A DNA stretch of 64,000 bases, taken from contig NZ_JAKKOT010000003.1 of assembly GCF_021739025.1 (NCBI RefSeq), positions 682,001 through 746,000 of the forward strand. Direction: 5' to 3'. Positions 2,232-41,948 of the stretch are shown one piece after another. A model generated the notes under the pieces. That model was not told the origin of the DNA. It searched no databases and saw nothing but the letters and a program-made list of their open reading frames with translations. The stretch is from Gordonia liuliyuniae. Its GTDB lineage: Bacteria; Actinomycetota; Actinomycetes; Mycobacteriales; Mycobacteriaceae. A program made the position numbers and the translations under genes. Every line of letters begins with the position of its first letter. The first letter of the stretch is position 1.

Positions 2232-2248
2232 ACCTGTAGAGCATAGGT
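2232..2248. promoter_or_regulatory. Operator family A site 1
   Basis: Half-sites ACCTGT and ATAGGT separated by 5 bases (AGAGC). It lies between the divergent TetR gene (ending its 5' side at 2173) and the SDR operon starting at 2486. It is closer to the TetR promoter, so autoregulation is the simplest reading. Confidence 0.6.
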
Positions 2249-2315
2249 TTACCCACGGCTGTGATCGGCGCACGGGGTGTGGCGTGGCGCGTTTCGAGCT
2301 GCTGACAAATATCAC

Positions 2316-2344
2316 TTGACGTCTCATGTCGGGTGTATTAGCTT
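2316..2344 (+). promoter_or_regulatory. Putative promoter of the SDR-ferredoxin-P450 operon
   Basis: TTGACG (2316-2321), a 17-base spacer and TAGCTT (2339-2344). The stretch GCTGACAAA followed by CTTGACGTCTCATGT is repeated almost exactly at 41901-41929 in front of the aldehyde dehydrogenase at 42146, which supports a real shared promoter module. The 312-base gap 2174-2485 otherwise holds operator site 1 and no gene. Confidence 0.5.
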
Positions 2345-2485
2345 GGATGGTGAGAGTGGCACGCATCACAGCTCGATGTATCGGACGTCCACCTCGATCC
2401 GGCAGGTCACAGCCCCGGAGAGCATCCATCCGGCTCGCCGGTCTGACGTCAAGAAATCACCCGACCCTCAAGGGAGAAGAACCAT

Positions 2486-3358
2486 ATGAAACTCGAAGGT
2501 AAAGTCGCGCTCATCACCGGGGCGGGATCCGGGCTCGGTCGGCAGTCCTCGCAGTTGTTCTCGTCCGAAGGCGCGAAGGTCGCCGTCGTCGACATCGACG
2601 CCGAACGTGCTGCCGGGACTGTAGAGCTAGTCAAGGAGCAGGGCGGCGAGGCGATCGCGATCACCGCCGACGTCTCGCAGCGCGACCAGATCACCGCTGC
2701 GGTCGCCGAGACGGTCTCGACCTTCGGTAAGCTCGACATCGCCTGGGCGAATGCGGGAATCGTGTCACGCGGCGGCGTTCCGACGGTGGCGGGCGGCGAG
2801 CAGGTTCTCTTCGAAGACTTGACGGTCGACGACTGGAACGATGTCCTCGGTGTCAATCTCTCCGGGGTCATCTTCACGGCACAGGCCGCGGTGCCCGCAC
2901 TCAAAGCGAATGGCGGTGGCGTCATCCTCGCCACGTCGTCCGCCGCGTCCCTGACCGCGTATCACGACATCTCGTTCTACAGCGCGACGAAGGCCGGCGT
3001 GAACGGCATGGTCCGGGGACTCAGTCTGGATCTCGGTCCGTATGGAATCCGCGTCAACGGGATCGCCCCGACACACGGCATGTCACCGAACTTCCTCATG
3101 CCCGCCGGCTCGCCGGTCGTCGGCCAGTCGTATGAAGAGGTCTCCGGGCCGTGGGATCCGTTCGTCTCGCCGATCCCGCTCAAGCTGAACCGCCCGCCGT
3201 CACTGCTCGACAACGCGAAGGTCGCACTGTTCCTCGTCTCGGACGATTCGGCATACACGTCCGGAACTGTGCTCGGATCCGCCGATGGTGGCACGCTCTC
3301 GCGGGTCGGCATGTGGTTCGCCGAGGACCTGAACCAGCCGAATCCGAACGAACAGTGA
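2486..3358 (+). CDS. Short-chain dehydrogenase/reductase
   Basis: A 290-residue SDR oxidoreductase acting on an alcohol or ketone with NAD(P). The N-terminal TGAGSGLGR cofactor loop, the NAG motif, the active-site Ser in TSSAAS and the YSATK catalytic Tyr-Lys pair are visible. It starts at ATG 2486 behind AGGGAGAAG and is the first gene of an operon. Its stop codon overlaps the ATG of the ferredoxin by one base. An insertion before the active site (around the segment GGVPTVAGGEQ) makes it longer than the usual 250 residues. This resembles mycofactocin-associated SDRs, but that assignment is less clear here than for the SDR at 13567. Confidence 0.88.
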   Translation: MKLEGKVALITGAGSGLGRQSSQLFSSEGAKVAVVDIDAERAAGTVELVKEQGGEAIAITADVSQRDQITAAVAETVSTFGKLDIAWANAGIVSRGGVPTVAGGEQVLFEDLTVDDWNDVLGVNLSGVIFTAQAAVPALKANGGGVILATSSAASLTAYHDISFYSATKAGVNGMVRGLSLDLGPYGIRVNGIAPTHGMSPNFLMPAGSPVVGQSYEEVSGPWDPFVSPIPLKLNRPPSLLDNAKVALFLVSDDSAYTSGTVLGSADGGTLSRVGMWFAEDLNQPNPNEQ

Positions 3359-3579
3359 TGGCTGCGTCGCAGATGCTCGCCGTCGACAGATCCGCGTGTG
3401 CAGGCCACGGCATGTGCTACGGCACGGCGCCCGACTTGATCGACTGCGACGACCAGGGCGATCCGATCCTTCCCGAACGGCGTCTGTCGGACGACGAGAC
3501 AGCCGCGGCACATGACGCCGTCGCGGCGTGTCCCGAGCGTGCGCTGTCGCTCGTCGAGGCGACAGCGTCGGCCTCGTAG
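3358..3579 (+). CDS. [3Fe-4S] ferredoxin, P450 partner
   Basis: A 73-residue ferredoxin with Cys14, Cys20 and Cys58 in the pattern CxxHxxC...CP, which is typical of single-cluster 3Fe-4S ferredoxins that feed electrons to bacterial P450s. It starts at ATG 3358, overlapping the SDR stop by one base. The P450 follows 51 bases later, so pairing with that enzyme is strongly suggested by position. No dedicated ferredoxin reductase is adjacent; the FprB-type protein at 21370 is a possible partner. Confidence 0.92.
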   Translation: MAASQMLAVDRSACAGHGMCYGTAPDLIDCDDQGDPILPERRLSDDETAAAHDAVAACPERALSLVEATASAS

Positions 3580-3630
3580 GACGAAGTCGCCGGCGTCGAC
3601 CTCAATTTCGCAACCCTTCAAGGAGATGTC

Positions 3631-4860
3631 ATGACCACAGCCCAGAAAGCACCTGAAGAAGTCACCGTCGACTTCGACGTCTACGATCCCGCGCTGGCGG
3701 CCCCCGTCGACCTGTTTCAGGATCGAGCTAAAGAGCTCGCCGCCGTCGGACCGGTCGTATGGTCGCCGAAGTACGGCGGGCATTGGATCGTCACCGCGTA
3801 CGAGGAGATCCACGAGGTTCTCCGGGATGCGGACACCTACTCGAGTTATCCGAACAACCTCGTGACGAACGAGGCGTTCGGCAAGTTCCTGCCGATCGAG
3901 TTGGATCCGCCGGAGCACACTGGCTATCGCAAGGCGCTCCAGCCGTTGTTCGGCCCGGCGCGCATGAAGAAGCTCACCGACGACATTCGCGCGGTGGTCA
4001 ACGATCTGATCGACAGCTTCGCCAAGCGCGGGAGCGCAGAGTATGTGTCGGAGTTCGCTCACGAACTCCCCGCGCGGGTCTTCCTGGCGCTGATGGACTG
4101 GCCGGTGGCCGACGCTCCGCTGTTCACCGAAGCTACCGACGTCGCCTTGCTTGGCAAGCCCGGCGCGAGTGAGCAGGAGTCGCTCGAGGCACGTGCAATG
4201 GCCGCGATGCAGATGTTCGGCTACTTCCAGAACATGGTGGACGAGCGTCGCGCGAATCCGGGCGACGACATAACGTCGACGCTGATCCACACCGAGGTCG
4301 AACTCGAGGACGGTGTGCGTCTACTCAACGATGAGGAGCTCAATCGACTGTTCTTCCTCCTGCTCATTGCCGGTCTGCACACCGTCCAAGGGTCATTGGC
4401 GTGGATGATCAAGCACTTCATCGACAATCCTGAGCAGCGTCAGGAAGTCGTCGACGATCCGGAGGCGATTCCGAACGCGGTGGAGGAGATCTTGCGAATC
4501 GAGGCGCAGGTTGTTCCCGGGCGACGCGCGACACGCGACACGGTTCTCGGTGGTCAACACATAGCGGCTGGAGACCAGATGATCTTGCTGTTGTGCTCGG
4601 CGAATCGTGACAGCGAGGAGTTCGATGACCCGGCGGTCCTCGACGTGACCCGCAGCCCGAACCGGCACCTGTCCTTCGGTGGTGGCCCGCACCGCTGCAT
4701 CGGCTCGCACCTCGCGCGCATCGAGATGAAGGTGGCGATGGAGGCGATCCATGAGCGCTTGCCCGACTACCGGTTCGTTGAGTCCGATCCGCCGGTCTTC
4801 CAGGCGTCGCAGGTGCGCGGCTGCTTGCGGATGCCGATCGAATTCACACCGGAGGCCTAG
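3631..4860 (+). CDS. Cytochrome P450
   Basis: A 409-residue soluble bacterial P450 monooxygenase. The heme-binding loop SFGGGPHRCIGSHLAR carries the Cys thiolate ligand, and the K-helix ExxR is EEILR. The I-helix reads IAGLHTVQ: the acid that normally precedes the oxygen-activating Thr is replaced by His. AAGGAG lies just before the ATG. It follows the ferredoxin in the same operon and a hairpin follows it, so it is the last gene. The substrate is unknown; hydroxylation of an alkyl or cyclic carbon is the family expectation. Confidence 0.93.
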   Translation: MTTAQKAPEEVTVDFDVYDPALAAPVDLFQDRAKELAAVGPVVWSPKYGGHWIVTAYEEIHEVLRDADTYSSYPNNLVTNEAFGKFLPIELDPPEHTGYRKALQPLFGPARMKKLTDDIRAVVNDLIDSFAKRGSAEYVSEFAHELPARVFLALMDWPVADAPLFTEATDVALLGKPGASEQESLEARAMAAMQMFGYFQNMVDERRANPGDDITSTLIHTEVELEDGVRLLNDEELNRLFFLLLIAGLHTVQGSLAWMIKHFIDNPEQRQEVVDDPEAIPNAVEEILRIEAQVVPGRRATRDTVLGGQHIAAGDQMILLLCSANRDSEEFDDPAVLDVTRSPNRHLSFGGGPHRCIGSHLARIEMKVAMEAIHERLPDYRFVESDPPVFQASQVRGCLRMPIEFTPEA

Positions 4861-4946: not shown

Positions 4947-4975
4947 CCATAAACCTATAGACGATAGGTTTATGG
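4947..4975. promoter_or_regulatory. Operator family A site 2, perfect 12-5-12 palindrome
   Basis: The left arm CCATAAACCTAT and the right arm ATAGGTTTATGG are exact reverse complements with a 5-base spacer (AGACG). This is the longest and most symmetric member of family A. It sits about 70 bases upstream of the first Rieske oxygenase, in a position to repress that operon. Confidence 0.75.
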
Positions 4976-5044: not shown

Positions 5045-6232
5045 ATGACGACATCACTGCCTCGCCAGGATCGGATCCGGCGCGCGCTCGAACTGCTGCG
5101 AAACGAGACCACCGACAAATTCGACAACGTGATCGACTTCGCGCCTGCCGAGTTCACCGACCCGGCGCTCGCTCAGGACGAGCGTGACCACATCTTCGGC
5201 ACCGTGCCGTCGATCGTCGCCCACAGCTCGGAACTGGCGAAGCCCAACGACTTCATGACGGTCCAGATGCCGCGTAACAGCATCATCGTCGTGCGGCAGA
5301 AGGACCACAGCGTCAAGGCGTTCGTCAACCTCTGCCGGCATCGCGGTGCGCTGCTCGAAGATCGGGAGAAGGGGCGCTGCCGAATCTTCTCCTGCCCCTA
5401 TCACCGGTGGTCGTACGATCCTGACGGTTCGCTGCGGACCATCACTCGCGACACGACCTTCGGCGACGTCGACCGGTCCGAGCACGGGTTGATCGAGATT
5501 CCGGTGCAGGAGCGTCACGGATTCATCTGGGTGATCGACAATGCGAACGCCACCATCGACGTCGCGGACTGGCTCGGACCCGAGATGGACGGCATCCTCG
5601 CCGAGTACCGGCTCGAGGACTCGGTGTGCTTCAAAGCCGGGGGCTTCGACGAGCCGACCAACTGGAAGATCATGCAGGACGCGTTCCTTGACGGCTACCA
5701 CATCCAGTATGCCCATCCGAACACCGCCGGAAAGATCATCCACACCAATGTGATGGCCTTCGAGGACTTCGGTCGGCATTGCCGCTTCATCGCGCCACGT
5801 AAGTCGATCGACCGCTTCCTCGAAGAGGATCCCGGCGACGAGGCACTCGACAAGTACGTCACGGAGACCCACTTCCTGCTGCCGAACTCGACGCTGCTTC
5901 GCCAGCCGGATCATTTCCAGCTGTTGACGTTCCGGCCGCACCCGTCCGATCCGACCCAGTCACGCATGGAGCAACGTCTCATCGTGCCGAAGGTCGAGGA
6001 CAGTGGACTTGAGGAGTCGCGCTGGGAGCGGCTGTGGACCAAAAACTGGGACATCCTGCTCGCCGTCCTCCACAACGAGGACTTCCCGCTGCTGCGCGGC
6101 TCGCAGCGAGGGATGGCCAGCGCCGACGCCGGCGAGATGATGCTGGGCCGCAATGAGATCGCCAACCAGGTGTTCCGGCGCGAGACGCGCAAGCTCGTCG
6201 CGGACGGGCGCGCCGCGGTGGCAGCACAGTAG
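5045..6232 (+). CDS. Rieske non-heme iron oxygenase, alpha subunit (copy 1)
   Basis: A 395-residue Rieske oxygenase. The [2Fe-2S] ligands are Cys97/His99 and Cys117/His120 (CRH and CPYH). The catalytic domain has the mononuclear iron His219 and His224 in DGYHIQYAH, preceded by NWKIMQD, and a later acidic ligand region near LHNEDFPLL. It should hydroxylate or demethylate a substrate using electrons from a reductase, probably the one encoded at 11574-12518. A clear paralogue lies at 26867-28051. A tandem-GNAT gene follows at 15 bases. It is the first gene of the operon Rieske-GNAT-acyl-CoA dehydrogenase-ligase-crotonase. No beta subunit is present; the substrate is unknown. Confidence 0.92.
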   Translation: MTTSLPRQDRIRRALELLRNETTDKFDNVIDFAPAEFTDPALAQDERDHIFGTVPSIVAHSSELAKPNDFMTVQMPRNSIIVVRQKDHSVKAFVNLCRHRGALLEDREKGRCRIFSCPYHRWSYDPDGSLRTITRDTTFGDVDRSEHGLIEIPVQERHGFIWVIDNANATIDVADWLGPEMDGILAEYRLEDSVCFKAGGFDEPTNWKIMQDAFLDGYHIQYAHPNTAGKIIHTNVMAFEDFGRHCRFIAPRKSIDRFLEEDPGDEALDKYVTETHFLLPNSTLLRQPDHFQLLTFRPHPSDPTQSRMEQRLIVPKVEDSGLEESRWERLWTKNWDILLAVLHNEDFPLLRGSQRGMASADAGEMMLGRNEIANQVFRRETRKLVADGRAAVAAQ

Positions 6233-6247
6233 ATCCGGCGCGACCTC

Positions 6248-7195
6248 ATGATTCGCTACGAATGGCGTTCGGAACTCGGCGACGCGGACGCCGAGCAGCT
6301 GAGAGATCTGCTGGTCCGCGCCGCGACCTACGACGCGGAACCCGAGTACAACACGATCGACGCCGACGAGGTGCTCAACGACCTGGCGTCCGACACCGGG
6401 GTACGACACCTGGTCATCTGGCTGAGTGCTCGGCCGGTCACCCTGGAAGGTCCCGATGAGCCCGAGCGCGTCGCAGGCGTGATCCGCCTCGTGCCGCGGG
6501 GTGACGGGTGGGCCGACGGAACCATCGTCATCGACCCGGAACTCCGCTCGATCGGCGTCGTCACGCTCCTACTCGAACGCGAAGGCGTCGAGGCATCCGG
6601 TGCCGACGGCTGGCTCGGCAGCGGTTTCGTCGGCATCCGATCGTGGGCGCGCGGCAACCATCCGGCGTCTGGACGCATCGGTGACCGGAACCTGCTGCCG
6701 AGTACCCGACGGGTGTGGAAACTCGTGCATCCCAGCAGCGAATGCGTCGACGGCGACGACAGGCTCGCGGACGAACTCGGCGACGCCGACACCGCCGCGA
6801 TCGACGCGCTGCTCACCGACCTCGGCGTGTCTGCGGGCGAACGCGACCGCGTGGGGGAGAGTGCTGGCGGCGGCGCCGACCGTCGTCGCGTGCTCGGCAT
6901 TCGAGCGGAACCCGGACTCGCCGGGTTGCTCGAACTGGACCTCGCCCCGTTGTACGTCGACGAATTCGGCAGGTGTGCCAGCGTCACCTATCTCGGAGTC
7001 ACGGGCCGACTCGGTGACGCACAACGCCGCGACGTCCTTGCGCACCTTCTGGTGTCGGCCGGCGCACGAGCCGCGGCTGCCGGTCTCGACGGTCTCATCG
7101 CCTACGCGGCGTCGACCGACGACGTGCTCGTGGCGGTGAGCCGACGCACCGGATTCCAGCATGACCGCACCGACGTTCAATACGAGATTCGTTGA
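6248..7195 (+). CDS. Tandem GNAT-fold protein (Rieske-linked, copy 1)
   Basis: A 315-residue protein that looks like two GNAT N-acetyltransferase folds in series, comparable in layout to mycothiol synthase MshD. The first half has a strand-loop segment VAGVIRLVPRG followed by IVIDPELRSIGV, the acetyl-CoA-binding region. The second half ends in FQHDRTDVQYEIR. The protein at 26031-26870, next to the other Rieske gene, shares this layout and the ending FGHDRTD. The substrate is unknown and the acetyl-CoA loop is not canonical, so catalytic activity is uncertain. Its conserved pairing with the oxygenase suggests a role on the same intermediate or in sensing it. Confidence 0.7.
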   Translation: MIRYEWRSELGDADAEQLRDLLVRAATYDAEPEYNTIDADEVLNDLASDTGVRHLVIWLSARPVTLEGPDEPERVAGVIRLVPRGDGWADGTIVIDPELRSIGVVTLLLEREGVEASGADGWLGSGFVGIRSWARGNHPASGRIGDRNLLPSTRRVWKLVHPSSECVDGDDRLADELGDADTAAIDALLTDLGVSAGERDRVGESAGGGADRRRVLGIRAEPGLAGLLELDLAPLYVDEFGRCASVTYLGVTGRLGDAQRRDVLAHLLVSAGARAAAAGLDGLIAYAASTDDVLVAVSRRTGFQHDRTDVQYEIR

Positions 7196-7210
7196 AGGAG
7201 AAACACGTCC

Positions 7211-8371
7211 ATGAAAAGTGACCTCTTCGAGGGCGATCATCTCGCCTACGCGGACGCTGTGCGAGGATTCGTCGCCCGCGAAGTCGTGCCCCACCTGGAG
7301 GAGTGGGAGGACGCACGCGAAATCGATCGCGGGGTCTGGACCGCGGCCGGTAGGCAGGGTCTGCTCGGTCTGTCGGTCCCTGAACGCTTTGGGGGCAGCG
7401 CGGTGACCGACTACCGGTTCCGAGCCGCACTCATCAACGAGCTCGCTCGTGTCGGCGCCAGCTCGCTGCAGTCGGGCTTCTCGACCAACGACGACATAGT
7501 CCTGAACTATCTGCTGCGTCTGGCAGATGAGGAGCAGTCGGCACGGTGGCTGCGTGGTTTCACGACCGGCGAGACGATCGGCGCCATCGCGATGAGCGAG
7601 CCGGGCACCGGAAGCGACTTGCAGGGGATCATCACCAGCGCTTCCCGGGTCGACGGCGGCTGGAGCCTGTCGGGCTCCAAGACGTTCATCACCAGCGGCA
7701 TTCTCGCAGACCTGGTGATCGTGGTCGCACGGACCGACATCTCCGCGGGGTCCAAGGGCTTCACCCTGCTGGTCGTGGAGGAGGGCATGCCGGGATTCCG
7801 CCGCGGCCGCAAGCTCCGCAAGGTCGGACTCCAGGCTCAGGACACCGCAGAACTGTTCTTCGACGACGTGTTCGTGCCCGACGCGAACGTCCTGGGCGAG
7901 GTCGGCGGCGGCTTCGGATACCTGATGGAGAGCCTGCCGCTGGAGCGACTCGGGATCGCGCTCGCCGGTCAGTTCTCGGCCGAGGCCACACTCCGATGGA
8001 CGGTCGACTACGTGCGGGAGCGTCGTGCCTTCGGCAAGGCGATCGGAGACTTCCAGAACACGTCGTTCACCATCGCCGACCACATCACTCGCACCGAGGC
8101 ATGTCGCGCCTACGTCGACCGCGCGGTCGCCCAGCATAACGCGGGAACGCTGTCGGCCGAGGACGGCGCGAAGGTCAAGTTGATCGCCACCGAGAACCAG
8201 TGGGCGGTCATCGACGCCTGCGTGCAGTTGCACGGCGGGTACGGATACATGCTCGAGTACCCGGTCGGTCGCGCGTTCACCGATGCCCGGATCCAGCGGA
8301 TCTACGGAGGTACCAACGAGATCATGAAACACATCATCGGCCGTCATGAACTGGCCCGCCCGACCGTTTGA
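7211..8371 (+). CDS. Acyl-CoA dehydrogenase
   Basis: A 386-residue FAD-dependent acyl-CoA dehydrogenase introducing an alpha,beta double bond. The FAD/substrate motif AMSEPGTGSDL and the C-terminal QLHGGYGYM and IYGGTNEIMK motifs are present. The end motif has Gly rather than Glu before GTNEI, as in long-chain and isovaleryl-type enzymes where the base lies elsewhere. AAGGAG precedes the ATG. It sits between the GNAT protein and an acyl-CoA ligase in the first Rieske operon. Electrons would go to ETF, which is not in the window. Confidence 0.92.
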   Translation: MKSDLFEGDHLAYADAVRGFVAREVVPHLEEWEDAREIDRGVWTAAGRQGLLGLSVPERFGGSAVTDYRFRAALINELARVGASSLQSGFSTNDDIVLNYLLRLADEEQSARWLRGFTTGETIGAIAMSEPGTGSDLQGIITSASRVDGGWSLSGSKTFITSGILADLVIVVARTDISAGSKGFTLLVVEEGMPGFRRGRKLRKVGLQAQDTAELFFDDVFVPDANVLGEVGGGFGYLMESLPLERLGIALAGQFSAEATLRWTVDYVRERRAFGKAIGDFQNTSFTIADHITRTEACRAYVDRAVAQHNAGTLSAEDGAKVKLIATENQWAVIDACVQLHGGYGYMLEYPVGRAFTDARIQRIYGGTNEIMKHIIGRHELARPTV

Positions 8372-8437
8372 CCCGGCAGCGCTCTCTCCGCCGGCACTGC
8401 TCGAACCCAGATCGCTCGACAAGAAGGAACGCACGCC

Positions 8438-9958
8438 ATGACTGAATCCATCGGAGCAGCCCTCGACTGGTGGGGAAGAACGAAACCGGAAGCCGTTTCG
8501 CTGGTCTTCAACGACTCGGAGATCACGTACGGTGAGCTGCGGAACTGGACCGGTCGTGCGGCCCGTCACCTCGTCGAGACGGTGAAGGTGGCGCCGGGCG
8601 ACCGCGTCGGGCTTCTCGGGCCGAACTCGATCGAGTGGCCTGTCGGCGCGCTGTCGATCCTGAAGTCCGGCGGTGTCCTCGTTCCGCTGAACAGTCGATA
8701 TCAGCCCGCTGAGCTGCGGAAGATCGCCGACGAGGCCGGTCTGTCCGTGGTCGTCGTGGCTCCCGGGTTCGAAGGTCTCGCTGAAGCTACCGCCGCGATG
8801 GGAGCGGGTTTCACGATCGTGCCGTACGCGGATCTGGTCGAGTTGCGCGAGGGGGAGCCCGATAGTTTCCGCGTCGACGTCGAGGCCGACGAGCCGACGA
8901 CGATCCTGTTCACTAGCGGTTCGACAGGCCTGTCGAAGGGCGTCGTGTTGACCAACCGGACGCTGCTGGCCATCGTTCTGGAGAACACGCTGACCGAGGA
9001 GGGCTTCCGGCCGGGCACCACGACACTGCTGGTGTTGCCGCTCGCGTTCACCCCAGGGCTCGTCTACGGACTGTTGATCACCACGGTGCTCGGCGGAACG
9101 CTCGTCGTGGAACCCGAGCTCGTCCCGTCGCGAGCGGTCACGCTGCTGGAGAAGCATGCGGTGGAGGCGATCTTCGGCGTTCCACTCATCTTCGAAGCGA
9201 TCTCGCGAGCACCGGAATTCGCTGACGCCGACCTGACGTCGCTGAAGACCGCGATCGTCGGCGGCGCCGCCGTTCCGACGGACCTCCTCCAACGGTGGGC
9301 GGATAAGGGCGTTCTGCTGCGGCAGATCTACGGCATGACTGAAGCGGGCGGCGTCGCCACCGCGACTATCGCGTCCGAGGCCATGGCGTACCCGGATCGA
9401 TGCGGTACGGGCTCGATCTTCACCGAGGTGAAGGTCTTCGACTCCGACGACCGCCCCGCAGCGCCGGGCGAGACCGGTGAACTGGTGGTCCGGGGCCCGG
9501 GTGTGACGCCCGGCTATTGGAACGATCCCGAGACGACCGCGCAAGCGTTGCGCGGCGGCTGGTTGCACAGCGGTGACCTGGGCGAAGCGGACGCTGACGG
9601 GCGGGTGAAGTTCGTCGACCGGCTCAAAGACCTGATCATTTCCGGCGGTATCAACATCTCACCGGTGGAACTGGAGATCGCGATCGGTGCGGTGGACGGG
9701 GTCGTCGAGGTCGCGGTGATCGCGGCAGCCGACGATCGGTTCGGGGAGACCCCCGCTGCCATAGTGACTGTCAAAGGCGACGTAGACGCGGAGACCATCG
9801 TCGAGCACTGCTCGACGGTGCTCGCCGACTTCAAGGTGCCGCGGTATGTCGTGGTCACCCGGGACCCGTTGCCGCGGCTGCCCTCCGGCAAGATCGCCAA
9901 GACCGCGATCCGCGACGCCTACCAGGACGTGCACGTGCGATTCGAGAAGGTGCGTTGA
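8438..9958 (+). CDS. Acyl-CoA ligase (AMP-forming)
   Basis: A 506-residue ANL-superfamily ligase that activates a carboxylate to its CoA thioester through an acyl-adenylate. The P-loop FTSGSTGLSKG, the YGMTEAG motif, the HSGDLGE hinge region, DRLKDLIISGG and the C-terminal PSGKIAK lysine are all present. Its stop overlaps the start of the following crotonase gene. The pseudogene at 23035-23892 is a decayed paralogue with the same C-terminal ending pattern. The substrate may be the acid formed by the upstream oxygenases, which is inference. Confidence 0.92.
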   Translation: MTESIGAALDWWGRTKPEAVSLVFNDSEITYGELRNWTGRAARHLVETVKVAPGDRVGLLGPNSIEWPVGALSILKSGGVLVPLNSRYQPAELRKIADEAGLSVVVVAPGFEGLAEATAAMGAGFTIVPYADLVELREGEPDSFRVDVEADEPTTILFTSGSTGLSKGVVLTNRTLLAIVLENTLTEEGFRPGTTTLLVLPLAFTPGLVYGLLITTVLGGTLVVEPELVPSRAVTLLEKHAVEAIFGVPLIFEAISRAPEFADADLTSLKTAIVGGAAVPTDLLQRWADKGVLLRQIYGMTEAGGVATATIASEAMAYPDRCGTGSIFTEVKVFDSDDRPAAPGETGELVVRGPGVTPGYWNDPETTAQALRGGWLHSGDLGEADADGRVKFVDRLKDLIISGGINISPVELEIAIGAVDGVVEVAVIAAADDRFGETPAAIVTVKGDVDAETIVEHCSTVLADFKVPRYVVVTRDPLPRLPSGKIAKTAIRDAYQDVHVRFEKVR

Positions 9959-10833
9959 TCTCCGACTCCACCGCCGCGGCGAAGGCGGACGTGCTGCTCG
10001 AACGGCCCACGCTGTGGGTGCAGCGAGCCGGATCGACCGCCGTCGTCTGGCTGAATCGGCCGGACAGGTTGAACGCCTTCACCTATGCGATGCGCGATGA
10101 CATCGTCGCGGCCTTCGACGCGACCGACGCCGACGATTCGGTGCGGGCCGTCGTCCTCACCGGCACCGGGCGGGCGTTCTGTGCAGGCGCGGACCTTCAG
10201 GCGGGAGGCGACACCTTCGTTCCCGAGGAAGGGCGCGGCGACGTCCCGCCCGATTCCGGCGGCGTCGCGTCGCTGCGGATCTTCGACTCGTGCAAGCCGG
10301 TGATCGTCGCCGTCAACGGACCGTCAGCGGGCGTGGGCGTGACGATGACGCTGCCTGCCGACGTCCGCATCGCGTCTGACGACGCGAAGTTCGCGTTCGT
10401 GTTCACTCGGCGTGGACTCGTTCCCGAAGCGTGCTCGACGTGGTTCCTTCCGCGCATCGTCGGAATGGCGACCGCCCTGAGATGGGCCATGTCCGGTGCG
10501 ACGGTGTCTGCGGTCCAGGCCCTCGAGGCGGGCCTCGTCTCGGAGATCGTCCCCAAGGCGGAGGTGCTGCAACGCGCGCTGACTATCGCCGACGAGTTCA
10601 CAGACGGCACCGCTCCGGTGTCCGTGGCGCTCACGCGCGCGTTGATGTGGCAGATGTCGGCGGCCGACGACCCCCGGCGAGCTCACCAGGTCGAGTCGGT
10701 TCTGCTAGTAGAGCGCGGCCAGTCCGACGACGTCCGCGAAGGCGTTGCATCCTTCTTGGAGAAGCGACCGGCTGTGTTCGGTGACGCCGTGAGTGACCAC
10801 ATGCGCGACCTCGATTTCCGCCCGCTGACATAG
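9955..10833 (+). CDS. Enoyl-CoA hydratase/isomerase (crotonase family)
   Basis: A 292-residue crotonase-fold protein. The oxyanion-hole segment GTGRAFCAGADLQ and the active-site region RRGLVPEACSTW are visible; the Glu in VPEA is at a usual catalytic position. The likely start is TTG 9955, which overlaps the ligase stop by four bases (TTGA) and keeps translational coupling. It would hydrate or isomerise the enoyl-CoA made by the acyl-CoA dehydrogenase in the same operon. It is the last gene before a separately transcribed TetR gene. Confidence 0.88.
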   Translation: MISDSTAAAKADVLLERPTLWVQRAGSTAVVWLNRPDRLNAFTYAMRDDIVAAFDATDADDSVRAVVLTGTGRAFCAGADLQAGGDTFVPEEGRGDVPPDSGGVASLRIFDSCKPVIVAVNGPSAGVGVTMTLPADVRIASDDAKFAFVFTRRGLVPEACSTWFLPRIVGMATALRWAMSGATVSAVQALEAGLVSEIVPKAEVLQRALTIADEFTDGTAPVSVALTRALMWQMSAADDPRRAHQVESVLLVERGQSDDVREGVASFLEKRPAVFGDAVSDHMRDLDFRPLT

Positions 10834-11573: not shown

Positions 11574-12518
11574 CTACAGGTCGATGACCAGGCGCTTCGA
11601 CAGGCAGCGGGATACGCAGATCATCATGACGTCGCCTTCGGCTGCCTCATCCTCGTCGAGAACCGAGTCGCGGTGGTCGATGTCCCCGCTGAGCACCGCT
11701 ACTTCGCAGGTGCCGCAGGTCCCTTCGCGGCATGAGAAATCGGCGTCGACGCCCGCATCGAGGACCGCGTCGAGGACGGACTCGTCCGCGCCGACCTGGA
11801 CGGTCGTGCCCGACTGCGCCAGTTCGACCTCGAAGGCAGTGTTGACGGCATCGTCGGGGACCTCCTTCGCGGCGAACCGCTCGACGTGGAGCGGAACACC
11901 GAGACGATGACTGACTTCTTCCACAGCCAGGAGAAGAGGCTCGGGTCCGCAGCAGTAGGCGACGCATCCGTCGTCGACCGAGCCCAGCGCTGACTCGAGA
12001 TCGAGCAGCCCGACCTCGTCGGTGGGTGCCAGCGTCACCTGATCTGGATGTGCCCGGGCAAGGACGTCGGCGAACGCCATGCTGGCCCGGGTGCGCCCGC
12101 CGTAAAGCAGACGCCAGGACGCGCCCGAACGGACGGCCGCGCCGATCATTGGGATGAGGGGCGTGATGCCGATGCCGCCCGCGATGAACAGGTACGACGA
12201 CGCCTCCACGAACGCGAAATGGTTACGTGGCCCCTGGGTGCCGATCTCCGAGCCGACGACGAGTTCGTCGTGCACGTACGCCGAGCCGCCTCGACTGGCG
12301 GGCTCACGCAGCACCGCGATTCGCCAATGGTCGTCGGCCGGGTCGCCGCACAGTGAGTATTGGCGGGTCACACCGTTGTCTAGTTCGACGTCGATGTGGG
12401 CGCCCGGCCGCCATTCGGGCAGTGCACCGCCTGCGGAGTCCTCCAGGACGACGGAGGCGACCTGGTCGGCCACCTCGTCCTTGGCGATCACGCGCAGCGT
12501 GCGGTGGGTGGGTGGCAT
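11574..12518 (-). CDS. Oxygenase reductase (PDR type) with C-terminal 2Fe-2S domain
   Basis: A 314-residue flavin reductase of the phthalate dioxygenase reductase family. The order is a flavin domain with RQYSLCG, an NAD-binding domain with GGIGITP and YCCGPEPL, and a plant-type [2Fe-2S] domain with CREGTCGTC followed by a fourth Cys. It transfers electrons from NAD(P)H to a Rieske oxygenase. It is the only such reductase in the window, so it may serve both Rieske copies. An upstream in-frame ATG at 12551 lacks a ribosome-binding site, whereas GGAAGG precedes ATG 12518. A family A site lies at 12554-12570. Confidence 0.9.
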   Translation of the reverse strand: MPPTHRTLRVIAKDEVADQVASVVLEDSAGGALPEWRPGAHIDVELDNGVTRQYSLCGDPADDHWRIAVLREPASRGGSAYVHDELVVGSEIGTQGPRNHFAFVEASSYLFIAGGIGITPLIPMIGAAVRSGASWRLLYGGRTRASMAFADVLARAHPDQVTLAPTDEVGLLDLESALGSVDDGCVAYCCGPEPLLLAVEEVSHRLGVPLHVERFAAKEVPDDAVNTAFEVELAQSGTTVQVGADESVLDAVLDAGVDADFSCREGTCGTCEVAVLSGDIDHRDSVLDEDEAAEGDVMMICVSRCLSKRLVIDL

Positions 12519-12553
12519 GCGGAGCCTTCCAGAAAACGGTTGAGTGCCCATTA

Positions 12554-12570
12554 ATCTTATGATATTAGTT
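12554..12570. promoter_or_regulatory. Operator family A site 3
   Basis: Half-sites ATCTTA and TTAGTT with 5 bases between. It lies in the divergent gap between the reductase (minus) and the alpha/beta hydrolase operon (plus), immediately upstream of the reductase. The match is weaker than for sites 2 and 9 but keeps the spacing. Confidence 0.5.
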
Positions 12571-12665
12571 TTATGCGAGCAACTGCGCTGGCCGGATGGC
12601 GACGCGGACCGATTGGCCTACAACGACTCTCGTGGGCTGTTCGCCCGATTCAAGGTGGTTTCTGC

Positions 12666-13562
12666 ATGCCCCTCACTGATATCCCGCAGTACTTTCGAGG
12701 TGACGGCGTCGATCTCGCGGCGAGCAGATGGGCGCCCGAAGACGAACCGACGGGGACCATCGTGCTGCTGCACGGAGGCGGGCAGACACGGCATTCGTGG
12801 CAGCGCACCGGCAGACGTCTGGCACGGGAAGGCTGGTTGGTGCACGCCGTCGACCTCCGTGGGCACGGGGACAGCCAGTGGGCGCCAGACGGCGACTACA
12901 CGATCGCCGCGCACGCGCGCGACGTTCGCGCGGTGACCGCGAGTCTGCCCGAGCCGCCCGTCCTGGTCGGAGCCTCACTTGGCGGGATGGCGTCGTTGAT
13001 GGCGCAGTCTGCCGACGAGTGCCTTGCGCGGGCGCTGGTCCTCGTCGACATCACGCCCAAGGCGCGGCCCGAAGGGCTCGCTAAGATCCACGACTTCATG
13101 TCCAGTGGGATCGACGGGTTCGACTCACTCGACGACGCGTTGGCCGCCGTCGTCGCCTACAACCCGAGCCGGCGACGCTCGCCGCGAGTCGACGGGCTGC
13201 GCAAGAACCTGCGGCACCGTGACGGACGGTGGTATTGGCACTGGGATCCGCGGATCCTCGCGCAGCGCGAGAACTCTGTGGAGGCCGCGGATGAACGCGA
13301 ACGTGCAGCCAGATCGGCGGCGCGGACGATCACCATACCGACGCTGCTCGTCCACGGCGCGGAGTCGGAGGTTGTCGCCGAGGACGGAGTCGACGACCTG
13401 CTCGCCCTCATCCCCGGCGCTCAGCACGTCGAAGTGCGCGGGGCGGGCCACATGGTCGCAGGCGATGACAACGACATGCTGAGCGCCGGGATCGTCGACT
13501 TCTGCGACGGCCTGCGGTCGCGCCGGACCCGTTTACCGGAGTTTCACCCAAGAAAGGAATGA
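12666..13562 (+). CDS. Alpha/beta-fold hydrolase
   Basis: A 298-residue alpha/beta hydrolase. The HGGGQTR oxyanion region, the nucleophile elbow GASLGG and the C-terminal catalytic His in GAGHMV are visible. AAGGTGG lies 7-8 bases before ATG 12666, preferred over an in-frame upstream ATG at 12573. The stop is 4 bases before the next SDR, indicating an operon. It could cleave an ester, lactone or C-C bond. A Baeyer-Villiger ester from the monooxygenase at 31068 is one possible substrate, which is inference. Confidence 0.85.
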   Translation: MPLTDIPQYFRGDGVDLAASRWAPEDEPTGTIVLLHGGGQTRHSWQRTGRRLAREGWLVHAVDLRGHGDSQWAPDGDYTIAAHARDVRAVTASLPEPPVLVGASLGGMASLMAQSADECLARALVLVDITPKARPEGLAKIHDFMSSGIDGFDSLDDALAAVVAYNPSRRRSPRVDGLRKNLRHRDGRWYWHWDPRILAQRENSVEAADERERAARSAARTITIPTLLVHGAESEVVAEDGVDDLLALIPGAQHVEVRGAGHMVAGDDNDMLSAGIVDFCDGLRSRRTRLPEFHPRKE

Positions 13563-13566
13563 GAAC

Positions 13567-14391
13567 ATGGCTCGTTTAGACGGAAAGGTCGCCTTCATCA
13601 CGGGTATCGCCCGTGGACAGGGGCGGTCGCACGCGGTGCGGCTGGCTGAGGAGGGCGCGTCGATCATCGGCATCGACATCTGTGACCAGATCCCCACAGT
13701 CTTCTACCCGATGGCCACCCGCGAGGATCTGGCCGAGACCGAACGGCTGGTCAAGGAGGCGGGCGGCGAGATCGTCACGACGATCGGCGACGTGCGCAGA
13801 CGTGAGGACATCGAGGCCGCCCTGGCTGCGGGCATCGAGCAGTTCGGCCACATCGACACGGTCATCGCCAACGCGGGCATCATGCCGGTAATCGGACCCG
13901 GCGATCAGCGACAGGCCTGGTTCGACGCGGTCGATGTCATGCTGACCGGTGTCTGGCAGGTGCTCGACGTAGTCTCGCCCATCCTCATCGAGCAAGGACG
14001 CGGCGGCACCATCACCATCACGAGTTCGGCTGCCGGGCTGCGCAGCATCGGACTCAACACCTTCCCCGGCCAAGCCGGTTACACCGCGTCCAAGCACGGG
14101 GTGGTCGGTCTGATGCGGCTCTACTCCAAGCAACTGGCCAAGGACTTCATCCGCGTCAACACGATCCACCCGACGGGCGTCAACACGCCGATGGTCGCCA
14201 ATGCCGAGTACGGCGAGTTCATCGCCGGCCACCCGGAGGTCGCCAGCGACGACGCCTACAAGAACCCGATGCCCGTCGAGCTCGTCGAAGCCGTCGACAT
14301 CAGCAACGCCATTGTGTTCCTGGCGTCCGACGAGGCCCGCTACGTCACCGGTGTGACGATGCCGGTCGACGCGGGTTACAACAACCGGTAG
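13567..14391 (+). CDS. Mycofactocin-type SDR oxidoreductase
   Basis: A 274-residue short-chain dehydrogenase with TGIARGQGRSHAVRLA and the segment IIGIDICDQI, which are typical of the mycofactocin-coupled SDR group found in mycobacteria and Gordonia. The Tyr-Lys pair is in YTASKHG. These enzymes hold a non-exchangeable NAD that mycofactocin reoxidises (family knowledge). No mycofactocin biosynthesis genes lie in the window. It follows the hydrolase by four bases and ends at a strong hairpin. Confidence 0.9.
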   Translation: MARLDGKVAFITGIARGQGRSHAVRLAEEGASIIGIDICDQIPTVFYPMATREDLAETERLVKEAGGEIVTTIGDVRRREDIEAALAAGIEQFGHIDTVIANAGIMPVIGPGDQRQAWFDAVDVMLTGVWQVLDVVSPILIEQGRGGTITITSSAAGLRSIGLNTFPGQAGYTASKHGVVGLMRLYSKQLAKDFIRVNTIHPTGVNTPMVANAEYGEFIAGHPEVASDDAYKNPMPVELVEAVDISNAIVFLASDEARYVTGVTMPVDAGYNNR

Positions 14392-14468: not shown

Positions 14469-16874
14469 TCAGTTGGCGGGTTGCAGCGCTCCAGCCGCGA
14501 CGAGGCGTTGGTACTCGTCGTCGTTCATGCCGAGTAGTCCGGTGCAGATCTCGCGGGTGTGCTCACCGGCCGTCGGCGCCTGACGTGCGGGCGGGTCGGC
14601 GATCGTGCTGAAGACTGCGGCACGGGCCGTCGCGGGGAGTGCGGTCGGCATCAGTTCGTGTGTCACCGTCGTGTACGTGCTGCGGGCGCACAAGTGCTCG
14701 TCGTTCAGCAGTTCGGGAAGCCGGAGCATCGGCCCGGCGGCCACGCCGACATTCTGGAGCTGGGTGGCGACCTCGGCGGGAGTGCGCGTTGCCGTCCACT
14801 GTGCGAGGACGTCGTCGGCTTCGCCGCGGTTCGCCAGACGTGCTGAGGCGGTCGCGAGACGTTCGTCAGTGATGAGCTCGGGCCGATCGGCGACGGTGCA
14901 GACGGCGGCCCACTGTGCGTCGGTGCGGACCGTCACCGTGCACCACTCGTCGTCGCCCGCGCACGCGAACACGCCACTCGGTGCATGACGCGGGTCGCTG
15001 TTCCCGGTCGGCACGACCGAGCCCGGGCGCAGACCCTCGGCGACGAGCGAAGCGCCGATGTGGTTGAGCGCCACATCCGATTGAGCGAGTTCGATCGATG
15101 TTCCGCGGCCGGTCTGGCGACGTGCGATCAGCGCGGCCAGCAGCGTGCTGGCACAGATGTGTCCGGCAATGTGGTCGGGGTACACAGTCGATCCGTCGCA
15201 CAGGAGTTCGCTGTCGTCCGGGTAACTCCAGAGCGCGGACACTCCCGATGCCGCGCGCACCAGCGGTCCGTATCCCATCCGGGACCGCCATGGTCCGGTG
15301 CTGCCGAACGCGCTCGCCTCGGCCACGATGATTCCCGGATTGATCTCGGCGAGCGACTCGTAGGAGAACCCCATTGCGGCGAGTGTGCCCGGTTTGAAGT
15401 TGGCGACCACGACATCGGCGTCAGCGACCAGCCGTCGGAAGACGTCCGCGCCCTCGGCCGAGCGAAGGTCCACGCCGATACTCCGCTTGTTGCGGTGGCC
15501 CCAGGCCACCGATGCGGAGAGCTTGGCTCCACGCTTGGACTGGCGCAGCCCGTCCGGGTAGTTGGCGTTCTCGATCTTGATCACGTCGGCGCCGTAGTCG
15601 GCCAGCTGCCTGCTCAGTTCGGCTCCGAAGACGATCACGCCGAGATCGAGGACGCGGATCCCCGCGAGCGGCGCGGCCGTCGCATCTGCGGCGGATACCG
15701 ACGGCTCGGGGGAGGGCTCGCCTGGAGTGCCCCACGATGGCGGGCCGTCCGCCATGGTGACGGCTGCTCGGAAACCTGCTCGCCTGCCTCCGACCCTCGC
15801 ATGCCCGGACGGGATACGCGTCGTGACGCCTGGGTACAGCTCGGCGTCGATGAGCGCGCCGGACTCGGCGAAGTGGTCGACGGCGAGCGCCTGACCGAGC
15901 GTGTAGACGGCGCCGACGGGGATGCCGCGGCGGGCTCCCTCGGCGACGAGTTCGTCCTGAGTGTGAGCGGCAAAGAGGTCCGCGATCAATGGGTGCAGAC
16001 GGTCGGCGGCGGCGAAGCGTGCGGGGATCGTGTCGTAGCGGGGATCGGCGAACTCCTCGGGCTCGCCGAGCCATTCGAACATCGCGCGCCACTGCCGTTT
16101 GGCGAGCAGGCAGATTCGGACGCGGCCGTCCGAGCATCCGAACACCGGGTAGAACTCGGCGGCTGCCGGACGGTTGCGCGGATAATCTTCCGCGCGCCCC
16201 GCCGCAGCCGAGCCCTGTGTACCGAAACCGGGGTCGAAGCCGTGGACCATCGCCTCGAACGCCGACACGTCGACGGTCTCGCCGAGTCCGGTCTCGGCAC
16301 GGCGATAGTAGGCCAGTAGTGCGGCCCACGCGGCGTGCGCCGCGACAGTTCCCTCGGCCAGACCCGCAGGCGGGAGCAGCGGAGTCTCGCCGGGAGCGCC
16401 GGAGCGCGACAGCACGCCGGACATCGCGTAGAGGACCTGCTCGTCGGCCACCCGGTGCCGGTACGGGCCGGTCAACCCGAAGGCGGTGATCGACACCCAC
16501 ACGAGGGCGGGCGTCGTCGCCCGCGCGGAGTCCGCGTCGACCCCCCATACCGAGTCGCTGCCGGGGGCGTCCGAGGTCACCACGATGTCCGCGCGGGCGA
16601 TCAAGCCGGCCACCGTGTCCGCGGCGACGGCCGGGTCGAGGGCGAGGCGCGCCTTGTTCGCACTGCGCAGTGCGTCGGCGACGCACTCATCGGACGCTGC
16701 CGGATCCGAGTCGGCACCCGACGGGGCTGCATCGGACCGGACCAGGTGGACGACGTCGGCGCCCAGATCGGCGAGGAACCGCCCGACCGACTCCGCGGAG
16801 CCGACGGTGAGGTCGAGGACGCGCACTGATTCCAGAGGAAGACCTGACTCCCCAGACTGAGACATGTGGATCAC
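14469..16874 (-). CDS. Two-domain CaiB/BaiF (class III) CoA-transferase fusion
   Basis: An 801-residue protein made of two family III CoA-transferase domains, about residues 15-390 and 405-801, each beginning with a VRVLDL-type strand. A single domain is normally about 400 residues. Domain 2 keeps an Asp in TVYPDHIAGH, the position of the catalytic Asp of formyl-CoA transferase; the matching region of domain 1 (PPAGLAEGTV) lacks it, so domain 1 may be structural. It should move CoA between acyl groups. It starts at a GTG (alternative ATG three codons later) 11 bases after the aldehyde dehydrogenase stop, and is the last gene of the operon that begins at 20297. Confidence 0.88.
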   Translation of the reverse strand: MIHMSQSGESGLPLESVRVLDLTVGSAESVGRFLADLGADVVHLVRSDAAPSGADSDPAASDECVADALRSANKARLALDPAVAADTVAGLIARADIVVTSDAPGSDSVWGVDADSARATTPALVWVSITAFGLTGPYRHRVADEQVLYAMSGVLSRSGAPGETPLLPPAGLAEGTVAAHAAWAALLAYYRRAETGLGETVDVSAFEAMVHGFDPGFGTQGSAAAGRAEDYPRNRPAAAEFYPVFGCSDGRVRICLLAKRQWRAMFEWLGEPEEFADPRYDTIPARFAAADRLHPLIADLFAAHTQDELVAEGARRGIPVGAVYTLGQALAVDHFAESGALIDAELYPGVTTRIPSGHARVGGRRAGFRAAVTMADGPPSWGTPGEPSPEPSVSAADATAAPLAGIRVLDLGVIVFGAELSRQLADYGADVIKIENANYPDGLRQSKRGAKLSASVAWGHRNKRSIGVDLRSAEGADVFRRLVADADVVVANFKPGTLAAMGFSYESLAEINPGIIVAEASAFGSTGPWRSRMGYGPLVRAASGVSALWSYPDDSELLCDGSTVYPDHIAGHICASTLLAALIARRQTGRGTSIELAQSDVALNHIGASLVAEGLRPGSVVPTGNSDPRHAPSGVFACAGDDEWCTVTVRTDAQWAAVCTVADRPELITDERLATASARLANRGEADDVLAQWTATRTPAEVATQLQNVGVAAGPMLRLPELLNDEHLCARSTYTTVTHELMPTALPATARAAVFSTIADPPARQAPTAGEHTREICTGLLGMNDDEYQRLVAAGALQPAN

Positions 16875-16885
16875 TCGCTTCGCGT

Positions 16886-19539: not shown

Positions 19540-19542
19540 CGT

Positions 19543-28256: not shown

Positions 28257-29063
28257 CTACTCGGCCCGCCAGAGGGGTGAGCGCTTCTCGGCGAACGCGC
28301 GCGGCCCCTCTTTCGCGTCCTCGCTGGTGAATACCGTGATGAGCTCGGTGGTGTTCGCTGCCCACTGGTCACTCTCGGCGGGGACGGCCCCGTCGACGAT
28401 GCCGACGGCCAGTCTCTTGGAGGCCTGGACGGCGAGCGGTGCGTTGGCGGCGACCTCCTCGGCGAGCTTGATCGCTGCGTCCAGGACGTCGGCGTCGGGC
28501 ACGACGCGGTTGACGAGACCGAGGTCGGCCGCCTGGCTCGCAGACACGGCCCGGCCGGTGAGCAGTATCTCCATGCCGATCTTCTTCGGAAGCGCGGCGA
28601 CGATGCGGAATGCGCCGCCGGCCCCCGCGATTATCCCGCGCTTGACCTCTGGGAGGCCGAATGTGGCACGCTCGGCGGCGACCGCCAGGTCGCTGGCCAA
28701 GACCAGCTCGGTGCCGCCGCCCAGAGCGGTGCCGTTCACGGCCGCGATGAGCGGTGTGCTGATCGGATGGGTGACGACGCCCGCGAAGCCCCACTTGCGG
28801 CGGGACCGGTCGGTCGCGTCGATGCCCTCGCCGCGCGCGATCGCCTTGAGGTCGGCGCCTGCGCAGAAAGATTTGTCGCCCGCGCCCGTTAATACGATCG
28901 CACGAATCTCGCGGTCGTTGTCGGCCTGATCGAGGGCGTCGCCGAGTCCGTCGGCGACGGCCGAGTTCACGGCGTTGCGTGCGTCCGGTCGGTTGATGGT
29001 GATCACGGCGACGTGGCCGCGACGTTCCACGAGGACGGCGGGGGTGGAGTCTTGTTCGGTCAT
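28257..29063 (-). CDS. Enoyl-CoA hydratase (crotonase family)
   Basis: A 268-residue crotonase. DKSFCAGADLKAI forms the oxyanion hole and LPEVKRGIIAGAGG includes a Glu at a usual catalytic place. The chosen ATG 29063 has a GAGAGA site upstream; an in-frame GTG at 29108 would add 15 residues without a ribosome-binding site. It is a single-gene unit with a family A site upstream at 29116-29132 and a terminator downstream. Confidence 0.88.
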   Translation of the reverse strand: MTEQDSTPAVLVERRGHVAVITINRPDARNAVNSAVADGLGDALDQADNDREIRAIVLTGAGDKSFCAGADLKAIARGEGIDATDRSRRKWGFAGVVTHPISTPLIAAVNGTALGGGTELVLASDLAVAAERATFGLPEVKRGIIAGAGGAFRIVAALPKKIGMEILLTGRAVSASQAADLGLVNRVVPDADVLDAAIKLAEEVAANAPLAVQASKRLAVGIVDGAVPAESDQWAANTTELITVFTSEDAKEGPRAFAEKRSPLWRAE

Positions 29064-29115
29064 GGTCTCTCTATCGGTGGTCGGTCGGGTGCGCGCAGCG
29101 ACGCTCACGCCATGA

Positions 29116-29132
29116 ACCGTATATGTATAGGT
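29116..29132. promoter_or_regulatory. Operator family A site 8
   Basis: Half-sites ACCGTA and ATAGGT with 5 bases between (TATGT), located about 50 bases upstream of the crotonase ATG at 29063. It lies between that gene and the long-chain acyl-CoA synthetase gene ending at 29172. Confidence 0.58.
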
Positions 29133-41022: not shown

Positions 41023-41037
41023 CGGCCGGCTCGACCG

Positions 41038-41850
41038 TCAGCGGCCGGTAAACACCGGCGGCCGTCGTTGCGTGAACGCCGCGACGCCCTCCCGGAAGTC
41101 GGCGGCGTCGACGAGGGAAGTCTGTCCCGCGACTTCGGTCTCGAAGGCCGCGTCGAGTCGACCGAGCAGCGCCGTGTTCAGACTACGTTTGGTCGCGGCG
41201 AACGCGGCCGTCGGTCCGGCGGCGAGTGCTTCCGCTAGCGCGGAGGCGTGCGCGTCCAGTTCGTCGTCGGGCACCACCTCGTCGACCATGCCCCACAGTC
41301 GGGCGGTGGCCGCGTCGACCTTGGTGCCGAGCATCGCCATACGGGTCGCCCGACCGATGCCGATCCGTGCGCCGATCAACAGCGACGCGCCGCCGTCGAG
41401 CGTCAGTCCGACCTTGGCGAAGGCGAGCGAGAACCACGCGGACTCGGCAGCGACGACCTGATCGCAGGCCATCGCCAACGCGCAGCCGAGCCCGACCGCC
41501 GAACCATTCACCGCAGCGATTACCGGCTTGTCCATGGTGCGAAGTGCGCGGACTGTCGGGTTGTACCGCATTCGGAGTTCTTCTTCGGTTCGCGGGGCGA
41601 GTCTCGTGCCGGAGTCGAGGTCGTCCAACGAGATGTCGGCGCCCGCGGAGAACATGCGGCCACGGCCGGTCAACACGACGCACCGCACCGCGTCGTCGTG
41701 AGCGGCGTCGTCGACTGCCGCCCGGAGAGATTCCTGTAACTGCAGGTCAAAAGCGTTGAGTGCGGCTGGTCGATTCAAGATCAGCTGGCGGACGGCGCCG
41801 GTCTGCGCAATGTCGAGCACGTCGCTCTGCGACGAATATTCGGTAATCAC
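41038..41850 (-). CDS. Enoyl-CoA hydratase/isomerase (crotonase family)
   Basis: A 270-residue crotonase with GRMFSAGADISL (oxyanion hole) and AKVGLTLDGGAS. The second region has Asp rather than Glu at one usual acid position, so isomerase or another crotonase activity is as likely as hydration. The start is GTG 41850. A family C palindrome lies at 41866-41882, with TATGGA as a minus-strand -10 fourteen bases before the start. It converges on the tandem TetR gene. Confidence 0.85.
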   Translation of the reverse strand: MITEYSSQSDVLDIAQTGAVRQLILNRPAALNAFDLQLQESLRAAVDDAAHDDAVRCVVLTGRGRMFSAGADISLDDLDSGTRLAPRTEEELRMRYNPTVRALRTMDKPVIAAVNGSAVGLGCALAMACDQVVAAESAWFSLAFAKVGLTLDGGASLLIGARIGIGRATRMAMLGTKVDAATARLWGMVDEVVPDDELDAHASALAEALAAGPTAAFAATKRSLNTALLGRLDAAFETEVAGQTSLVDAADFREGVAAFTQRRPPVFTGR

Positions 41851-41865
41851 GACTACGACGGTAGT

Positions 41866-41882
41866 CCATACAACATGTCTGT
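41866..41882. promoter_or_regulatory. Family C operator 6
   Basis: CCATAC and GTCTGT with 5 bases between (AACAT), overlapping the putative -10 of the crotonase gene transcribed to the left. Confidence 0.58.
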
Positions 41883-41915
41883 ACTTGATGTATATCCACT
41901 GCTGACAAAAGACGC

Positions 41916-41948
41916 TTGACGTCTCATGTAAACCTATCTACTGTAGGT
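41916..41948 (+). promoter_or_regulatory. Promoter with overlapping family A operator site 9
   Basis: TTGACG (41916-41921), a 17-base spacer and TACTGT (41939-41944). The family A site ACCTAT-N5-GTAGGT (41932-41948) covers the -10. The upstream module from GCTGACAAA to CTCATGT is shared with the promoter at 2316-2344. It drives the aldehyde dehydrogenase at 42146 and possibly the mce genes behind it. Confidence 0.65.

Follow-up and report, generated by a model that had tools for sequence, protein, structure and literature searches.

A conserved palindromic motif and two TetR-family proteins point to a local regulon in a catabolic island of Gordonia liuliyuniae

A stretch of 64,000 nucleotides from the genome of the soil bacterium Gordonia liuliyuniae (assembly GCF_021739025.1, 4.04 Mb, here G000; contig NZ_JAKKOT010000003.1, here C5, positions 682001-746000; hereafter the window) was analyzed for a family of palindromes that lie before the operons of a 45-kb catabolic island, in which two TetR-family proteins, here named TetR1 and TetR2, are also encoded. 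Judging from sequence comparisons, we regard it as quite probable that these palindromes are the operators of a local TetR-family regulon, in which TetR1 would repress most of the operons and TetR2 would act mainly on its own operon, headed by a Rieske oxygenase gene (Rieske2). The motif was found before genes of the island, was conserved in related genomes, co-occurred with TetR1 and presented a distinct subtype near TetR2. The two proteins and the nine sites are listed below in window coordinates; no strand is assigned to the sites.

1550..2173, minus strand: TetR1, probable general regulator, with TetR_N and TetR_C_1 domains over the Pfam cut-offs
23900..24508, minus strand: TetR2, an accessory paralogue encoded at the end of the Rieske2 operon
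2232..2248: operator-like site, 59 bp from the TetR1 ATG and also before a divergent short-chain dehydrogenase (SDR) gene; scores above all controls
4953..4969: best of the operator-like sites, with symmetry extending across 29 bases, ahead of the Rieske1 operon
12554..12570: operator-like site in the gap from which the reductase gene and the hydrolase-SDR genes diverge
20336..20352: operator-like site ahead of the aldolase operon
20418..20434: operator-like site upstream of Fe4S4/ferredoxin-reductase genes (20449-22974), about 15 bp from their ATG
28096..28112: operator-like site of the A/A subtype (A in both half-sites at +/-7), heading the Rieske2-TetR2 operon and a candidate for recognition by TetR2
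28145..28161: second site of the gap that contains 28096, weak and doubtful
29116..29132: operator-like site before a crotonase gene
41932..41948: operator-like site between a crotonase gene (41038-41850, minus strand) and an aldehyde dehydrogenase (ALDH) gene (42146-43534, plus strand)

The initial annotation had described nine variants of ACCTAT-N5-ATAGGT with 6-5-6 spacing, and all nine were present. As written, this 17-bp consensus was weakly non-random, with 10 matches in the window at up to three mismatches against 3.5 expected, a count reached in one of 100 shuffles; the resulting list omitted 12554 and 28096, which depart from the consensus at five of 12 positions each, and added 20248, 35248 and 39705. 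Across the genome, 15 places were matched at up to two mismatches against 13 for a reversed control pattern; five of the 15 were in the island, among them all three places with zero or one mismatch. Because it was weak in the window and unenriched genome-wide, the 17-bp consensus was dropped and replaced by an extended palindrome. The actual element is longer, about TAAAnCTAw-N5-wTAGnTTTA: the pattern AANCTW-N7-WAGNTT, at up to one mismatch, matched the window eight times against 0.27 expected (none of 100 shuffles reached this number), and all eight matches were among the nine sites, 2232 being the unmatched one. When inner spacings from 1 to 15 were compared, enrichment was detected only for 7 (four in the island, 37 in 35 loci from relatives and none in a control from the same genome), all other spacings giving at most one.

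A scoring matrix was obtained from ten training sites, namely the nine from the window and C5:681940, a further site 61 bases left of the window, before a first ALDH gene; aligned with their flanks, all ten carried TAG at +4 to +6 on one arm. The matrix pointed to another site outside the training set, C5:680340, which is 46 bp upstream of a thiolase gene and 1661 bases to the left of the window. The control consisted of 359,496 positions (360 kb) of the same genome, with contigs C1 and C2 (under 2 kb) left out. In leave-one-out scoring, 10 of these 11 sites outscored every control position (8/9 among those of the window), the exception being 28145, for which six control positions scored higher. 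A second matrix, built from 103 relatives' sites that had first been gathered with the window's own matrix, ranked ten window-region sites at the top; 28145 obtained 8.4 with it, against a control maximum of 7.9, and is considered doubtful. A weak match (12.2 with the window matrix, 9.7 with the relatives' matrix) was detected 6091 bases to the left of the window; it falls within an open frame and was excluded from the sites. A test of whether the motif is concentrated in the island had been proposed; the ten-site profile, searched against the whole genome (E<=10), yielded 11 matches, all in the island region and all corresponding to the ten training sites, one of them on both strands, and the untrained 680340 was missed. 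Within the sensitivity of this profile, the family is confined to the island. The sites had also been said to lie always in gaps before operons, and their position before genes agrees with this. A reservation applies to 12554: the two divergent starts annotated there are 21 bp apart, the site occupies the whole of that gap, and the starts may have been placed too far upstream. The operons named in the initial annotation all carry sites, although the membership is wider, since it takes in the thiolase and ALDH genes left of the window and, probably, an Mce operon.

The recurrence of the motif before homologous genes was examined in 35 loci (L060-L094) around TetR1 orthologues of Gordonia, Aldersonia, Rhodococcus, Nocardia, Mycolicibacterium/Mycobacterium and Aeromicrobium; 19 loci matching TetR1 only in or near the helix-turn-helix (L095-L113) were left out of the counts. 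At scores of at least 12, there were 130 matches against 12 in the reversed sequence, and at scores of at least 16 there were 111, against a maximum of 9 among 60 column-permuted matrices. The 112 sites scoring at least 16 were spread over 32 of the 35 loci; 100 were upstream of homologues of island genes at a distance of up to 450 bp, and none was inside such a homologue. The homologues most frequently preceded by a site were Rieske1 (13 of the 35 loci), the ferredoxin reductase (12), the SDR-P450 unit (12) and the DUF35-aldolase operon (8), and a site scoring at least 16 was present before TetR1 itself in seven loci. In the 103 relatives' sites the strongest positions were +/-4, +/-5 and +/-6, together with AT-rich positions +/-8 to +/-11, whereas +/-2 was nearly free.

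The motif also goes with TetR1 across genomes. TetR1 orthologues (E<=1e-40) were detected in 41 of 301 genomes of the family. TetR1 shares 94% identity with a protein of Gordonia humi and 88% with those of G. zhenghanii and G. hydrophobica, and a homologue with 75% identity is on record for Rhodococcus jostii. A profile named R2, made of 18 relatives' sites, each in its two orientations (36 sequences), was run at E<=10 on 39 genomes, comprising 20 of the 40 genomes that, besides G000, carry TetR1, and 19 of 20 named TetR1-negative genomes of the same genus (G282 being left out). Matches were obtained in 16/20 TetR1-positive and 0/19 TetR1-negative genomes, and 40 of the 43 distinct places were on the TetR1 contig at no more than 55 kb from TetR1. 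On account of this distribution, TetR1 is the probable general repressor.

Several observations weigh against this interpretation. The 17-bp form alone showed no genome-wide enrichment over its reversed control. The genome-wide search with the ten-site profile returned training sites only, and therefore speaks for specificity, not for discovery. Three of the 35 relatives' loci were free of sites (L066, L079 and L092), four of the 20 TetR1-positive genomes had no R2 match (G276, G068, G081 and G224), the R2 training set overlaps the tested species (at least G172, G192, G129 and G019), and a strict R2 search of the 301 genomes (E<=0.1) matched two of them, a threshold too stringent to be of use. 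The co-transcription of the Mce genes is inferred from gene order. Finally, the island contains other TetR genes (10888-11550 and 39397-41022), which are rival candidates for the regulator. The second of these is a single long frame in which EthR_C and TetR_N are each matched by two stretches, giving two domain pairs of TetR type and apparently a double TetR protein.

Both TetR1 and TetR2 belong to the TetR family by their TetR_N domains (41.5 and 41.7 bits, respectively; cut-off 24). TetR1 also matched TetR_C_1 (25 bits, cut-off 21), and its AlphaFold model (pLDDT 86.8) consists of ten helices, an all-helical fold with a C-terminal ligand domain; the C-terminal domain of TetR2 had no Pfam match at E<=0.001. 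As had been noted, the recognition helices are nearly identical, agreeing at 8 of 10 residues over GV-x-APSLY-x-HF, whereas the overall identity is 35%. TetR2 was present in 7/301 genomes, all of them among the 41 with TetR1, and since it is absent from most of the motif-bearing genomes, TetR1 accounts for the motif without it.

The seven sites neighboring TetR2, chosen by hand as those heading or flanking its gene, resembled AAATAAACTAwnGnCrTTAGTCTA in all seven genomes. These related, not independent, sequences had A in both half-sites at +/-7 in six cases (A/G in the seventh), compared with 1 of 112 among the sites of TetR1 loci. In the loci fetched for the six remaining TetR2 genomes there were 20 sites, five of them A/A, one each in five loci and all beside TetR2. 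The site neighboring TetR2 heads the Rieske2 operon in the window, in G172 and in G259 and stands 3' of TetR2 in the remaining four genomes, so its type follows TetR2 and not one gene; G266 and G272 have TetR1 and TetR2 separated by more than 1 Mb, and no site other than the A/A one occurs there within 20 kb. It seems that TetR2 reads a variant operator.

These observations bear on the proposal of the initial annotation that TetR1 and TetR2 bind all the sites interchangeably, under one inducer. The resemblance of the recognition helices, the location of TetR2 in an operon that one of these sites precedes and the mixed type of the two halves in many sites are all consistent with it, but the scarcity of TetR2 relative to TetR1 (7 against 41 genomes), the A/A subtype beside TetR2 and the divergence of the two ligand domains render it unlikely. 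The idea of a single regulon thus retained the confinement of the motif and its tie to TetR1, and is otherwise probably too simple, because TetR2 is rare and its sites form a subtype.

A second alternative is that TetR1 is the counterpart of the mycobacterial Rv0767c and the palindrome that of motif X from the phytosterol-induced operons of Mycobacterium sp. VKM Ac-1817D, in which case the regulon would be partly known. In the text available from PMC6593523, motif X is a palindrome placed before operons with P450s, aldehyde dehydrogenases, SDRs and TetR genes, including an autoregulatory site, a likeness to the island; another paper, PMC4482099, deals in its accessible part with the same neighboring system. 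The sites recovered by chromatin immunoprecipitation for Rv0767c are, as far as the available part of PMC10312376 goes, enriched in GAC/GTC and depleted in TAA/TTA, a trimer preference opposite to that of the window motif. The Rv0768 equivalog of this genome was detected elsewhere, at C5:800507 (895 bits, cut-off 775), beside an SDR, a different TetR and a P450. The gene order there matches what we take to be that of Mycobacterium tuberculosis, Rv0766c-Rv0769, and on the same assumed order, in which the regulator adjoins the Rv0768-type aldehyde dehydrogenase, TetR1 has no such neighbor. The TetR at that locus aligned to TetR1 over 18 residues only, and the best score in the stretch was 6.9, indicating that it carries no site. 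By locus and protein, Rv0767c was discarded as the identity of TetR1, and the alternative is very improbable.

That the palindromes are AT-rich promoter elements or chance palindromes, as their position before genes, where the AT content is higher, and the control-range score of single sites such as 28145 might suggest, is scarcely credible in view of the strict spacing, the permuted-matrix control, the 0/19 TetR1-negative genomes and the invariant positions in relatives.

Among known systems, the KstR and KstR2 sterol regulons of Mycobacterium and Rhodococcus are alike in having autoregulated TetR-family repressors with palindromes before the operons of a large actinobacterial catabolic cluster; they differ in operator and in gene set. 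The KstR operator, which we take to be TnnAACnnGTTnnA, had two to four mismatches in eight positions at each of the 11 sites. The KstR2 operator AnCAAGnnCTTGnT, as given in the accessible text of PMC3068626, had three to five mismatches in ten positions at every site, and its one single-mismatch place in the window (0.35 expected) was not at a site. Both identities were ruled out by these mismatches, in agreement with the earlier impression that the motif fits neither. KstR3 of Mycolicibacterium neoaurum, described in the available part of PMC10398937, is a TetR-family repressor of an aldolase and DUF35 operon (HBC operon) in which it is itself located, and whose deletion raised four clustered genes; TetR1 lies outside the aldolase operon and has a predicted regulon of about ten promoters, so that, on that part of the source, the two are set apart by regulon size only.

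The nearest solved structures were those of tetracycline repressors (class D). Both proteins remained far below the cut-off of the tetracycline repressor equivalog NF010319 (TetR1 83.6 and TetR2 76.4 bits; cut-off 265). The invariant TAG half-sites of the window operator share the spacing of tetO, and the information of tetO at +/-2 is lost. The residues at TetR positions 39, 42 and 44 are kept in TetR1, Ser replaces Thr at 40, Gln38 is Ala, and Arg28, which presumably contacts operator position +/-2 in tetO, is Pro. The residues that we take to contact tetracycline (His64, Asn82, His100 and Glu147) are not conserved, being Val69, Leu87, Leu105 and Met152 in TetR1 in an alignment to a chain itself altered at 100; because of these residues a hydrophobic ligand is suggested.

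The remaining genes of the island are as follows.

2486..3358, plus strand: SDR of the SDR-P450 unit
3631..4860, plus strand: cytochrome P450, by domain searches
5045..10833, plus strand: Rieske1 operon, with Rieske oxygenase, GNAT-like protein, acyl-CoA dehydrogenase, CoA ligase and enoyl-CoA hydratase, by Pfam
11574..12551, minus strand: ferredoxin reductase, probable electron donor of the oxygenases
12573..14391, plus strand: alpha/beta hydrolase and mycofactocin-coupled SDR (13567-14391; TIGR03971, 351 bits, cut-off 300)
14469..20298, minus strand: aldolase operon, with SnoaL/NTF2-like small protein and DUF35-like protein (both by eye), SCP2-type thiolase/aldolase, ALDH and type III CoA-transferase
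24514..28051, minus strand: Rieske2 operon, with Rieske oxygenase, GNAT protein and CoA ligase, then TetR2 (gaps -4, -4 and 5)
28257..29108, minus strand: enoyl-CoA hydratase/crotonase
42146..53866, plus strand: ALDH, then a YrbE-YrbE-MceA-F operon with a Mce-associated-type protein and a MlaF-like ATPase

The ALDH and Mce genes behind 41932 probably form one transcription unit, with gaps of 136 bp behind the ALDH gene and 138 bp behind the sixth Mce gene. Two Nocardia loci show, on one strand and in succession, a site, a CoA ligase gene, YrbE (77-78% identical to that of the window) and Mce genes; on the basis of this order and of the ALDH-YrbE-Mce order in the window, the Mce importer is a probable member of the regulon. 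The Pfam scan covered YrbE-A, YrbE-B, MceA and the ATPase, and the other five Mce-type genes were named by position. The ATPase and Mce-associated-type genes (51845-53866) come after the six Mce genes; an ATPase linked to an actinobacterial mce operon is unusual. An identical 14-mer, TTGACGTCTCATGT, occurs at 2316-2329 and 41916-41929, before the SDR and before the ALDH-Mce genes. It was weighed as a second operator and may instead be a -35 region: at 41916, TACTGT follows 17 bases later inside the operator and may be a -10 covered by the site. Elsewhere in the island, the molybdopterin Fe4S4-type frame (342 residues) and the CoA-ligase frame (298 residues, C-terminal part only) at 20449-23892 look shorter than usual and may be remnants or reduced genes. 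The 801-residue frame at 14469-16874, in which CoA-transferase family III is matched by two stretches, may encode a transferase that arose by fusion or duplication; its homologues are likewise long in several relatives.

Searches of the island proteins against NCBIfam and solved structures gave broad classes only and singled out no steroid, terpenoid or other named substrate. Judged from the genes, the substrate may be a cyclic or branched hydrophobic compound that would be taken up by the Mce importer, opened by the Rieske and P450 oxygenases and then shortened via CoA esters with an Ltp2-type aldolase, one dehydrogenase of the pathway being coupled to mycofactocin. TetR1, a distant relative of the tetracycline repressor, would bind the extended palindrome as a dimer and repress most operons of the island, where roughly ten gene sets carry sites; its predicted targets are the two Rieske oxygenases and the reductase, the P450, the SCP2/DUF35-type aldolase operon, CoA ligases, dehydrogenases, probably the Mce importer, and its own gene. 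An intermediate of the imported, probably hydrophobic compound would release TetR1, and TetR2, the rarer paralogue, would probably have as its main target the A/A-subtype site that heads its own Rieske2 operon.

No description of this regulon was found in the open-licence literature; the type of switch is well known, and the circuit and its signal seem to be undescribed. As a more tentative proposal, which we hold as possible and somewhat less likely than its contrary, the circuit may be a nested one, in which a conserved TetR(D)-like general repressor and a rarer duplicate, with its operator preference shifted at +/-7 from C/T-rich to A/A, would jointly gate a Mce importer and a duplicated Rieske pathway for a hydrophobic substrate across Gordonia, Rhodococcus, Nocardia and Mycolicibacterium. 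The analysis yields an operator code, a candidate regulator and a list of predicted target operons for a conserved catabolic island that includes a Mce importer. The substrates of such importers are rarely known, and the regulator or its ligand domain would offer a direct handle on finding that of the island. TetR1 and TetR2, with their matched operator subtypes, would in turn form a natural case in which to examine how the DNA target of a repressor shifts after duplication.

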